A DNA stretch of 32,057 nucleotides from the NCBI GenBank assembly GCA_007693825.1, contig RECX01000183.1, forward strand, positions 1-32,057, read 5' to 3'. Source of the DNA: Balneolaceae bacterium. GTDB lineage: Bacteria > Bacteroidota > Rhodothermia > Balneolales > Natronogracilivirgulaceae. The notes under the pieces are model-generated. The model worked only from the letters and a program-made list of their open reading frames with translations. It had not been told where the DNA came from and searched no databases. Below, one piece after another: positions 11,853 through 17,500 of this stretch. Positions within the stretch are counted from its first letter, which is position 1. Each line of letters begins with the position of its first letter. The translations under genes and the position numbers were made by a program.

Positions 11853-13681
11853 AGGTTATCCATTTTATCGGGAGAAATGAATATGCCATCACCCATGGTG
11901 TACAGCGGTGGTATGGAGACCTGCAACCGGCCGTTGATCGATGCGCGTCCCATTATTGCATTTGATACGGCTGTCTGTTGCCTTTTGTGTGGCGACCAGC
12001 CGAGCAGATGCACGTCGGCTTCTGCCATATTCAGGATGGCATAGGGTGTTCCGAGGGAAACGGCGATAACGGGATGTTCGCTCTGGAATATGTGATCCAT
12101 GAAAGGAGAAATGGTGTCATCGAGGCTGATGTCATCGGCAGACCGGATCGCAATGTGGGAAACGGCAATGACAAGATCTGCAGACCTGATCGTCTCGACA
12201 GCCTTCAGGCTGTCACGTTCGCACTGTCCGGCATGCACTGTCACCGTCTGCACCTCCCGGAATTGCCCGTCGAGCACCCGGGAAATATGATCATCCGGCT
12301 GCCTTCTCCCATCCGTAATGTTTACAATGCTGATTCTGTCAAAGCGGTTGTCGTCCAGTGGCAAAAGCTGGCCCTTGTTTCTCAGCACGGTAATGGATTT
12401 TTTGGCAATATGATCTGCAATCAGCCGATGTTCCCTGGTGCTGACGAGATCAGGCAACTGACCGATGTCCACAATTTGAGGATTGCGAAAGAGGCCCGCC
12501 CTGAATTTTTCCGTCAGGATCCGATGCACCGAGTCGTTGATACGGTCTCCAGCTATTTCACCGGAAAGGACCGCCAGCTGCACGGCATCCATGGCTTCTG
12601 CCAGATCGGCCGGGAGCAAAATCTGGTCAATGCCTGCCTTTACGGCGAGAACCGCCGCATCGCCGGCATTAAAAAAGTTGCGGATGCCTCGCATGCCCAT
12701 TCCATCAGTAACGATCAGACCGTCGAAAGCGAGCGTATCCCGCAGCAGCGTTCCTGTGATGTAGGGATCCAGCGTTCCGGGATGTCCGGCATTTCGGGCT
12801 ATTTCAGGAAGAGCGATATGTGCTGTCATGACGCTGGGGAGACCCGCCTGGATCGCCTTCCGGAACGGGATCATCTCCAGCGTTGAGAGGCGATGGTAAT
12901 CAAAGGGCAGGACAGGCAGGTCCAGATGCGAATCGACGTCCGTGTCGCCATGCCCCGGGAAATGCTTTGCGGTAGACATGACACCGGCATCCCGGGCACC
13001 CTCCATGAAAGCGATGCCGTACCTGGCAACCGTATCCGGATTTTCGGAATAGGATCGGACATTGATCACCGGGTTAAGAGGATTGTTATTCACATCCAGA
13101 ACCGGTGCATATATCTGATGGATGCCAAGTGAAGAGGCCTCCCTGGCGGTGATGTATCCTTTCTGGTAGGCAAAATGGGGATTTCCTGTGGCTGCAATAC
13201 CCATGGCAGGAGTGAAGTAGGTGGCCTGCGGAATTCTCATGGCTGCGCCGAATTCCATATCCTGACTCACCCAGAGTGGAATTCGGCTTTTTTTCTGAAG
13301 ACGATTTGTTACTATGGCCTGATCATAGATGTTGCCGCTGAAAAACATGATGCCGCCGACTTCCTTTTCCACAACAGCTTCTGTCATACGATGCCAGGCG
13401 GGGTCGTCCGCTGAGTAAAAACCGCCCCGGGCAGCAACGACAAACATCTGACCAATTTTCTGCCGAAGGGTCATGGACGCCATCAGTTGTTCCAGGTGTG
13501 CCTGTTCTTCCGGAAGCAGGGATGGTTTTTTTCCGTTTTCAACGGGGACGTATGCGGGATCGTCCGTCAGTGCCACATGAGATCCGCAGGAAACGAGCGC
13601 ATGTACACTGAAAAACAAAAATGCGGATACAATTACAAAGGCGAAAGCCGGACGCTGTCCGTCCAAAGGTCCCTGGCTCAT
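11849..13681 (-). CDS. Glycoside hydrolase family 3, beta-N-acetylhexosaminidase (NagZ-like), predicted lipoprotein
   Basis: GQMFVVAARGG, KHFPGHGDTDVDSHLDLPV, GLIVTDGMGMRGI (nucleophile Asp region); lipobox-like ALVSC. Start at internal Met (MSQGPLDG, 13681) gives an ATGA overlap with the upstream gene. Confidence 0.9.
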   Translation of the reverse strand: MSQGPLDGQRPAFAFVIVSAFLFFSVHALVSCGSHVALTDDPAYVPVENGKKPSLLPEEQAHLEQLMASMTLRQKIGQMFVVAARGGFYSADDPAWHRMTEAVVEKEVGGIMFFSGNIYDQAIVTNRLQKKSRIPLWVSQDMEFGAAMRIPQATYFTPAMGIAATGNPHFAYQKGYITAREASSLGIHQIYAPVLDVNNNPLNPVINVRSYSENPDTVARYGIAFMEGARDAGVMSTAKHFPGHGDTDVDSHLDLPVLPFDYHRLSTLEMIPFRKAIQAGLPSVMTAHIALPEIARNAGHPGTLDPYITGTLLRDTLAFDGLIVTDGMGMRGIRNFFNAGDAAVLAVKAGIDQILLPADLAEAMDAVQLAVLSGEIAGDRINDSVHRILTEKFRAGLFRNPQIVDIGQLPDLVSTREHRLIADHIAKKSITVLRNKGQLLPLDDNRFDRISIVNITDGRRQPDDHISRVLDGQFREVQTVTVHAGQCERDSLKAVETIRSADLVIAVSHIAIRSADDISLDDTISPFMDHIFQSEHPVIAVSLGTPYAILNMAEADVHLLGWSPHKRQQTAVSNAIMGRASINGRLQVSIPPLYTMGDGIFISPDKMDNL

Positions 13682-16122
13682 GGTATAAATCTTTGAATAT
13701 TTTTGATGTCGTGCGTTTGGTCGGGAGGCAGTAGTACCGGTTGTTTCATCATCCCCTGGTTCCACAACGTGAACTGGTCGATGAAGTGTCCGGAAAAGAG
13801 GTTGCCTGACTGGCCGGTACTCAAAACTGAATAATACCTGTGTTCTGGCCGCACCATCATAATGCCTTTCATGGTGACACCTGCTGCTTTTGAGATCGCG
13901 TCCCGGTTATGCTGCGGATACATGGCTTTGATGGAATGGGGTGAACCTGAAACGGTCATTCCCTCGGGCTGAAACAGGTTTCTTTCCGCCAATCGGGCAG
14001 GTCTGCTGTTCATCCTGGTCTCTTCAAAAAGCACCGGCTGAAAACTGCCATCAACAACCCTGTTCCACTGCCAGTCGTACGGTTCATTGCCATAGTTTGA
14101 TTCCAGAAATCCCAGTGTTTCCTTCATGCTGACAGTAATCCACTCGCGATGGGTATATGGGTGAGTTTCCGGCCATCTTTCCGGGTGAAGCAGCAGCTCG
14201 GTAACCGCTGAATAAAGGATATTGGGAGTTTTGAAAAGCATTTGGATATCACGATCCTCAAGCCAGGGGCGATACAGGTTCCGCGCGGCGGTTTTTTGGA
14301 ACTGCTGGAAAAGGGTCGCTGCTGTTTCATTTGGGTCGAACCTGTAGTTCCAGTTTCTCAGATAGGGGATGACTAGTTCCAGTACAGGATCAGTGCCATT
14401 CTCCGTTGCCGACACTTCGAGGGCTGAGACGATAATTGGAGTCAATTCCGCAGCATATGAAGAATATGTGTCGTTTGACCATTGTCCGATGATGTCAGAG
14501 ACCAACCGGTCTTCAGGGGTCTGCTCTAAAAGTTGCAGAAGTCTTTCGGATCTGTTCCAGGGAGGGGCAAACAGACATTTTTCGCCTGCATTTGCATGCG
14601 CCGGGACGGGTTGTTCGATAAATGTGACCGGATTGCCGGTTGCATTGTGCTGATGAGGCACAATTACAGAAGCGTCAATGGTTGCAACCGGAGTGTCGCG
14701 TTCTCCTGTCTCTCTGATCCGGAACGGCTGAGTATCCCTGTTCAGTTTTCCACCTGTGATGCGCCCGGTTTGTCCGCCAGCAGTGACATAAAGAATCTGA
14801 ACCGGTGGTATGGCAAGTGATTCGGCAGCACGCTGCAGTTGTTCCGGACCGTTGGCGTTCCTGATACTGAAAAGTGCAGCTATATCATCTGCTGCAGCCG
14901 GGCCCACCCACTCAAAAGCCAGATATCGGTTGTATTCCTCCGAGACGGCCACGACCGGTCTGTGACCTGCCTTTTTGGTTACAACCAGCAGCTCACCTCC
15001 GTTCCGCAACGGAAGGATGTGACGATCAAGACTCAGATTTGGATTCAGGCGGGACTCGATATCGGGATCATTTTCCCAGTCAACGGGCCGTGGCGGCGGA
15101 TCACGGAACAGCTCACCTGTAAAAAAAAAGCCGTTATCGGAAATAAGCGGCAGTATCTTCCAGGCAAGATGTTCGTTCTGACCCCCGGTGAAAACCGGCA
15201 AACCCGGTATCGTTACTCCGTAGTACCAGTTGTCCTGCTTTTGCAGTGCCATTTCGTATCCCGGATCAGGCAGTGTCAGCAGCGATTCCCTGGTATAGGT
15301 CAGAAGACCGAACGGGTTGGCTCCGGTCCTGGCAAAGGCTGCTCCGGTTCCTGTCAAACCGCTGCGGGGGGGAGCGGCGGTTTCTGAAAAACGGTAAAAG
15401 TCATCCAGAAGTGAAATGTATGCGTTTTCTTCCATGGAAGGCTGACCAGAGCCCCATAAAAGCTCCCTGGCATTGTCCATGCCGGTCAGCGCACGGATCG
15501 CCGTTCCGTCTTCAATGTAATGAAGATTAGCCATTGCTGGCTTTGCCCAGAACGCCTGTTGCTGGTCCCAGCTCCAGAGAATTAATACACCGATGGAATG
15601 CCACGGCTCCCAGGCTATCGGCTGCACATCGCCCAGGGCAAACTCGGGCGGCAAATGCCTGTGATGCTTGTCGATGAATGCGTTGACTCCCTTGGCGTAG
15701 GCATCCAACAAAACTTTCTCCGGTTGCGGCAACTGGCGGTATACTTCCTTCGCTATGGCGCCGAATGACATCGTAAGAAAAAAACGATCGATGTCCACCA
15801 TGGATTCCGCTATTTCCCTTGAATGAAGCCCCTCCAGCTTGTATTGCTTTCTGGTCATCTGCCACAGGCGGTCGCGTGCATGCAGAAAACCCATGGCAAG
15901 AAACAGGTCCGGCTCATGATTTGCCTTGATGCGGGGTACCTGGTGGGTGTCCCATGCGACCGTCACTTCCCCTTTCAGTCCGTTCAGCGTTACCGTATCC
16001 TCCAGGGACGGAACAACACTGTAGGAAGTCCAGTAAACGGACAATCCGGAGATCACCACAATGAGAACGATAAAAAGGATGGCAATCCTGACAGCGATAA
16101 GCTGTGATGTCCATTTCATCAA
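13678..16122 (-). CDS. Penicillin-acylase (S45, Ntn-hydrolase) family protein
   Basis: N-terminal TM; GEVTVAWDTHQVPRIKANHEPDLFLAMGFLHARDRLWQMTRKQYKLEGLHSREIAE is the classic S45 N-terminal region; TIPGLPVFTGGQNEHLAWKI. The nucleophile region is atypical (see findings). Confidence 0.85.
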   Translation of the reverse strand: MMKWTSQLIAVRIAILFIVLIVVISGLSVYWTSYSVVPSLEDTVTLNGLKGEVTVAWDTHQVPRIKANHEPDLFLAMGFLHARDRLWQMTRKQYKLEGLHSREIAESMVDIDRFFLTMSFGAIAKEVYRQLPQPEKVLLDAYAKGVNAFIDKHHRHLPPEFALGDVQPIAWEPWHSIGVLILWSWDQQQAFWAKPAMANLHYIEDGTAIRALTGMDNARELLWGSGQPSMEENAYISLLDDFYRFSETAAPPRSGLTGTGAAFARTGANPFGLLTYTRESLLTLPDPGYEMALQKQDNWYYGVTIPGLPVFTGGQNEHLAWKILPLISDNGFFFTGELFRDPPPRPVDWENDPDIESRLNPNLSLDRHILPLRNGGELLVVTKKAGHRPVVAVSEEYNRYLAFEWVGPAAADDIAALFSIRNANGPEQLQRAAESLAIPPVQILYVTAGGQTGRITGGKLNRDTQPFRIRETGERDTPVATIDASVIVPHQHNATGNPVTFIEQPVPAHANAGEKCLFAPPWNRSERLLQLLEQTPEDRLVSDIIGQWSNDTYSSYAAELTPIIVSALEVSATENGTDPVLELVIPYLRNWNYRFDPNETAATLFQQFQKTAARNLYRPWLEDRDIQMLFKTPNILYSAVTELLLHPERWPETHPYTHREWITVSMKETLGFLESNYGNEPYDWQWNRVVDGSFQPVLFEETRMNSRPARLAERNLFQPEGMTVSGSPHSIKAMYPQHNRDAISKAAGVTMKGIMMVRPEHRYYSVLSTGQSGNLFSGHFIDQFTLWNQGMMKQPVLLPPDQTHDIKNIQRFIP

Positions 16123-16137
16123 ACAGGAAAATATGTG

Positions 16138-16145
16138 TAAGTTTG
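16138..16145 (+). promoter_or_regulatory. Candidate -7 element TAAGTTTG upstream of lysA
   Basis: Exact match to TAnnTTTG; no convincing -33 element found. Confidence 0.25.
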
Positions 16146-16200
16146 GGGTTTATGAATGAATGCACAAATTACGAATTCTATACCAGAACCGTTTACATAA

Positions 16201-16250
16201 ATGCAACACAATCCATAATGCAACACAATCCATAATGCAACACAATCCAT
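16201..16250 (+). repeat. Three-copy 17-bp tandem repeat (ATGCAACACAATCCATA) spanning the lysA start codon
   Basis: Units begin at 16201, 16218 and 16235; the first two are identical over 17 bp and the third over 16 bp (then TC). Confidence 0.95.
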
Positions 16251-17500
16251 CATTGCCGGTCGACCCCGACCGGCTGCTTGCCATTGCGCAGAAATGGGGT
16301 ACGCCTACCTATGTCTATATGGAATCCATGATCCGTGAGCGTTGCCAGATGCTGAAGCGTCTGTTTCCTGACCTTCCGGTATCCTGGCTTTACGCTGTCA
16401 AGGCAAATGACAACCCCCATATCATCCGTATCATATCCGGGGAAGGGTTTGGTTTCGATACGGTAAGCTATGAAGAAGTGCTTTTGTGCCTGAAACTGGG
16501 AACCGGTCCGAAGCAGATTTTCTATACGGAAAACAACATGACCGACGCGGAGATGCAGGGGGCGGCGAAGGAGGGAGTGACCCTGAATATAGGATCCCTT
16601 GGCAGGCTCAGGGCGTTTTGTGAAGCATATCCGGGATCGGAATGCAGCATCCGTATCAAACCGGATATAAGCGACGGGCATCATGCCAAGGTGGATACGG
16701 GAAACCAGGACAGCAAGTTCGGGATCCGGCTGGACCTGATTCCGGAGGCGGTTCGTGTGGCTGGAGAACACGGTGTCCGAATCCGTGGAATCCATGCTCA
16801 TATAGGAAGCGGGATTCAGGAGCCTGAAAACATACTTGCGGAAATCGAAGTGCTGTTGAAATCATCCGCCGGCCTGGATGATCTGGCGTTCATCAATTTT
16901 GGAGGCGGGATCCCGATCCCTTACAGGCATGATGAGACACCTTTTGATCTTGACCGGTTTGCACATTTGGCGTCAAAGCGGCTGAAGGCATTTCTTGAGG
17001 CCAACAACCGGCCGGTATCCTTTTTCTTTGAACCCGGAAGATGGATTGTGGGTCCGGCCGGGATCCTTCTCACCCAGGTAAACACCGTCAAGGATCAGGG
17101 CCGCAAATTATTCCTTGGAACAGACACGGGATTCAATCATCTGCTTCGCCCGGCTCTGTATGAAGCGTACCATGAGGTTGTAAATATCAGTGCGGATGCT
17201 CATGGAACTTCCCAAACCTATCATATTGCGGGAAACATCTGTGAAAGCGGTGACATGCTGGGGCTTGACAGAGCGTTGCCGGAAAGCAAGCCGGGAGATT
17301 ATCTCGCCATACGTGACACCGGAGCGTATGGTATGACCATGGCTTCCCAGTACAACCGAAGAGCGCTTCCGGCGGAGGTGCTGATTACAGCGGAAGGGTA
17401 TCACAAAACGATACGCAGCAGGAAAACACCCGCAGAAACGGTAAACGACCTGCTAAAGGAAACCGGTTTGGCCGCCGCTCAAAAAAGCGAGACTTCATGA
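16235..17500 (+). CDS. lysA: Diaminopimelate decarboxylase
   Basis: Fold-type III PLP decarboxylase: VSWLYAVKANDNPHIIRII (PLP Lys), GFDTVSYEEVLL, IHAHIGSGI, INFGGGIPIPY, EPGRWIVG, GNICESGDMLG, DTGAYGMTMASQYNRR. Start placed at MQHNPSLPVDPDRLL; the track ORF extends to 16160. Confidence 0.93.
   Translation: MQHNPSLPVDPDRLLAIAQKWGTPTYVYMESMIRERCQMLKRLFPDLPVSWLYAVKANDNPHIIRIISGEGFGFDTVSYEEVLLCLKLGTGPKQIFYTENNMTDAEMQGAAKEGVTLNIGSLGRLRAFCEAYPGSECSIRIKPDISDGHHAKVDTGNQDSKFGIRLDLIPEAVRVAGEHGVRIRGIHAHIGSGIQEPENILAEIEVLLKSSAGLDDLAFINFGGGIPIPYRHDETPFDLDRFAHLASKRLKAFLEANNRPVSFFFEPGRWIVGPAGILLTQVNTVKDQGRKLFLGTDTGFNHLLRPALYEAYHEVVNISADAHGTSQTYHIAGNICESGDMLGLDRALPESKPGDYLAIRDTGAYGMTMASQYNRRALPAEVLITAEGYHKTIRSRKTPAETVNDLLKETGLAAAQKSETS

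Follow-up and report, generated by a model that had tools for sequence, protein, structure and literature searches.

In the stretch of DNA analysed here (the window, 32,057 nucleotides), the start of the lysA gene lies in a perfect tandem array of three 17-bp units, and this array is real and ordinary in origin. We consider it very likely that it arose through a recent slippage duplication of the start region, confined to this lineage, that LysA is still made from the third ATG of the array, and that the two minicistrons in front of it are by-products of the duplication without an evolved regulatory role.

The array occupies positions 16200–16250 of the forward strand, where Tandem Repeats Finder reported a period of 17, 3.0 copies and 100% matches for the unit AATGCAACACAATCCAT; the threefold unit at the lysA start that the earlier note had described is thereby borne out. 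Each of the three repeat ATGs (16201, 16218 and 16235) is in a different frame. Minicistron 1 (16201–16218, forward strand) and minicistron 2 (16218–16235, forward strand) both read ATG CAA CAC AAT CCA TAA, encoding MQHNP, and the last A of each TAA is the first base of the next ATG. This gives TAATG overlaps at 16216–16220 and 16233–16237, through which minicistron 2 is joined to copies 1 and 3. The sequence thus confirmed the chain of coupled five-codon frames that had been claimed, and the array shows the overlap of a stop codon with the next start codon by which termination-reinitiation coupled leader cistrons are recognised. The first ATG (ATG1) retains the native upstream context of lysA, TTTACATAAATG, which is the same in the close relatives L002 and L003 and includes the in-frame TAA of the relatives, and it now opens a five-codon peptide. 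The third (ATG3, 16235) is the sole repeat ATG that shares the frame of lysA, and its context, CATAATG, was created by the repeat junction. Copy 3 is followed by a C and then by the lysA frame, which is open to 17500. It is correct, as had been noted, that gain or loss of units keeps the last copy in frame, but this property is general to tandem duplications over start codons. The RNA of the array has essentially no structure (−1.4 kcal/mol, z +1.15).

The gene that begins in copy 3 (16235–17500, forward strand) encodes a diaminopimelate decarboxylase of 421 amino acids. LysA scored 373 bits against TIGR01048 (cut-off 298). The dN/dS ratio was about 0.11–0.14 against L002 and L003. At the sequence level lysA is intact, and its divergence from these two nearest relatives shows the mark of purifying selection.

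LysA was sought in 98 related genomes, and the DNA 5' of the gene was then read in each member of the genus. The protein was present in all nine other genus members, and among named genomes the gene is closest to those of the CSSed16 series, which are Balneolales genomes assembled from metagenomes. The earlier note had proposed a check of copy number in close relatives, and the result was uniform, as each of the nine genomes has one copy of the unit at the same site with the same flanks. No array before lysA was found in these nine genomes, and the leader ORFs are not conserved in them, no leader copy being present. The single, unvarying copy in relatives that had been named as evidence against a regulatory array is therefore what is seen between species, where the copy number is three here and one in the nine relatives. 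The LysA proteins of L002 and L003 are about 93–94% identical to that of the window, and 57 and 56, respectively, of the 60 bases upstream of the first ATG are identical. A TAA triplet stands directly 5' of the ATG in eight of the nine relatives, the exception being L004 with CAA. As this TAA is in frame right before the ATG, LysA starts there or later, which fixes the native start. Since all nine relatives are single-copy, the single copy is ancestral and the lineage of the window gained 34 bp; the identity of the three copies fits a recent gain. As far as the compared genomes indicate, this +34-bp expansion is private to the lineage, and nothing in them suggests that the array is conserved as a regulator.

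Short tandem arrays are also frequent elsewhere in this genome, which is a 3.2 Mb draft of 354 contigs and 86% complete. The census covered 789 kb of contig sequence, roughly one quarter of the total (L084–L163 and the window), and found 48 perfect arrays with at least two copies and a period of 15 or more (61 per Mb), while 13 arrays of period 10 or more reached about three copies. One base-shuffled copy of the 789 kb contained zero perfect arrays of period 15 or more, so the array is not due to base composition. In half of the short perfect arrays of the genome the period is not divisible by 3. In the comparison sample (L164–L223), four genus relatives had 7 arrays in 396 kb (18 per Mb) and three more distant genomes had 3 in 400 kb (7.5 per Mb), contig sizes differing between the samples. 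By these densities the genome is seemingly rich in short perfect arrays (period 15–60), which may reflect more frequent short tandem duplication in this lineage or an effect of assembly. With such a density, one array falling on a start codon is unsurprising. A perfect array of four 15-bp copies lies at L138:8825–8884, and the orthologous stretch of the genome G002 (L234) has two copies within 3 mismatches, so that there, too, species differ in copy number. The array at lysA occurs at one place in the genome, where further copies of its unit were only scattered single matches with 1–2 mismatches. Taken together, the single-copy relatives with the same flanks and the abundance of perfect arrays in the genome support well the suggestion that the array is a slippage-derived duplication of the start region.

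We propose that the 17-bp segment over the lysA start codon underwent a duplication, for which the unit size and the perfect copies suggest replication slippage as the most likely mechanism, and that a recent expansion confined to this lineage brought it to three identical copies. The native initiation context now feeds the MQHNP minicistron, and the start of lysA would have moved 34 nt downstream to the third ATG. LysA would still be produced, by direct binding of the 30S subunit at ATG3 in the unstructured leader and/or by reinitiation through the two TAATG overlaps. In the bacteria and archaea that have been tested, overlaps of stop and start are reported to support reinitiation, and the Shine-Dalgarno motif is reported to be rare at overlapping genes of Bacteroidetes (PMC6728339). 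The output of LysA may be somewhat altered, probably modestly lower, and the minicistrons would be by-products without an evolved regulatory role.

How special the chaining of stop and start codons is was estimated by simulating single tandem duplications across the start codon in 512 gene-like ORFs of this genome. With a 17-bp unit, about 47% of the duplications created an ORF with a stop codon overlapping the following start, with ATGA in about 43% and TAATG or TGATG in about 5%. In the single-copy sequence of L002 and L003, one of the 15 breakpoints for a 17-bp unit yields TAATG. Duplicating the start codon with a 17-bp unit thus commonly produces a stop/start overlap, and the TAATG form is a minority. 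Because TAATG is not automatic (one breakpoint in 15, and about 5% genome-wide), there is some room for selection for tight coupling.

That the array is an artefact of assembly or binning, the true genome having one copy, is in our judgement very unlikely. The draft state of the genome noted above, the origin of the relatives from metagenomes and the larger number of short tandem arrays here than in relatives would fit such an error. However, the usual short read is longer than the 51-bp array and reads would therefore span it, and assemblers do not typically err by an exact 17-bp triplication. Another reading places the start of LysA upstream, at the ATG at 16160, from which translation would read through the repeats and add an N-terminal extension of 25 residues (16160–16234, forward strand). 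The frame is indeed open from 16160 to 17500, but it coincides with that of lysA only at three copies: this ATG stands 41 nt before the first repeat ATG, which at one copy leaves 16160 out of the lysA frame, and 16160 is in frame here because the two extra units add 34 nt to the 41 nt. This ATG is also absent from the close relative L002, and in eight of the nine relatives the in-frame TAA lies immediately 5' of the native ATG. We rejected the start at 16160 on this comparison and regard it as extremely improbable, since its frame depends on three copies and L002 is without that ATG.

Two further readings give the minicistrons a function. One of them, which we find very improbable, is that they enhance reinitiation by holding ribosomes near ATG3, so that the output of LysA rises. 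Korolev et al. proposed that leader genes near a gene raise its initiation rate, but the leader spacing that was reported for Bacteroidetes is 11–14 bp (PMC4833913), as against an overlap here. Moreover, lysA of the relatives works from the first ATG with no leader ORF, and the arrangement is not conserved. The other is the copy-number-tunable translational attenuator of the earlier note, in which LysA falls stepwise as each extra unit brings one more minicistron and one more round of reinitiation, while slippage varies the number of units. The geometry suits it, as the last copy is always in frame and TAATG overlaps link the units, and identical 17-bp copies are expected to be prone to slippage. 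Nevertheless, the nine genus relatives have one copy and the array is found in one genome only, no variation in copy number was seen, and many like arrays stand elsewhere in the genome with no minicistron arrangement. MQHNP contains no Lys codon, no terminator-like site was found in 16050–16300, so that attenuation of the terminator type was rejected, and no Rfam family matched in the window at gathering scores, so that a lysine riboswitch or other known RNA was rejected as well. As a stop/start overlap is in addition a frequent by-product of a 17-bp duplication at a start codon, the attenuator found no support and is highly unlikely. The same low standing applies to a population rheostat, in which cells with one, two, and three or more units would make stepwise amounts of LysA by successive termination and reinitiation with the enzyme unchanged; we hold it to be highly improbable.

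Upstream of the array, a conserved block, AATTACGAATTCTATACCAGAACCGTT (16167–16193, forward strand), lies shortly before the native start. In comparison across the genus and family, its conservation ahead of lysA is strong within the genus, while in the family it can be recognised in a less exact form. The block is intact here, the array having been inserted downstream of it, and it occurs once in the genome when 3 mismatches are allowed. A TTCT/AGAA RNA hairpin in the block was considered and rejected, as there was no compensatory change, most pairs were invariant and a few were broken. Since the pairs lack covariation, it is no less likely that the block is a DNA site for the divergent promoter region; it could serve as an operator or belong to the promoter of the divergent gene. 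The latter is a large ORF of 814 amino acids (13678–16122, reverse strand) that had no NCBIfam match; its start region, close to lysA, is conserved throughout the family. The segment 16123–16147, GAAAATATGTGTAAGTTTGG, adjoins the start of this divergent gene, is conserved in most of the family and contains TAnnTTTG. This motif, TAAGTTTG (16138–16145, forward strand), is conserved in the genus as well as in most of the family, and we take it to be a candidate Bacteroidota-type −7 promoter element for lysA. A sigma-70 promoter made by the repeat (TTTACA-16-CATAAT, 16192–16219) was rejected, with one match against 0.8 expected by chance.

The array resembles minisatellites made by slippage in its perfect head-to-tail copies, its single-copy relatives and a unit length like that of many arrays in this genome; unlike ordinary minisatellites, it happens to cover a start codon. 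With termination-reinitiation pairs and short leader genes (PMC6728339, PMC4833913) it shares the one-base overlap of stop and start and a short ORF directly before a gene. It differs from those leader genes in consisting of two identical five-codon ORFs that were born of a duplication and are unconserved, and in overlapping where Bacteroidetes leaders are spaced. TAACTGA direct repeats before start codons were reported in Beggiatoaceae and some Bacteroidetes (PMC4679880), and these are likewise tandem repeats with stop codons at a start codon; however, they are one 7-bp sequence found upstream of the start of many genes, whereas here the start region of a single gene is itself repeated. Like the leader peptides of amino-acid attenuation, the minicistrons are short ORFs before an amino-acid biosynthesis gene, but the array has none of their Lys codons, terminator or conservation. 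In the literature searched, with most subscription journals outside the search, there was no example of the exact arrangement, only these comparators.

As it stands, the array is of little consequence, though it illustrates clearly, in a natural setting, how a short duplication of a start codon makes stop-start-coupled minicistrons in one step with the protein untouched. If the copy number varied and set the levels of LysA, a housekeeping gene would be reversibly tuned in a new way, and, if true, this would also offer a natural test of serial reinitiation in bacteria in which Shine-Dalgarno pairing is hardly used.
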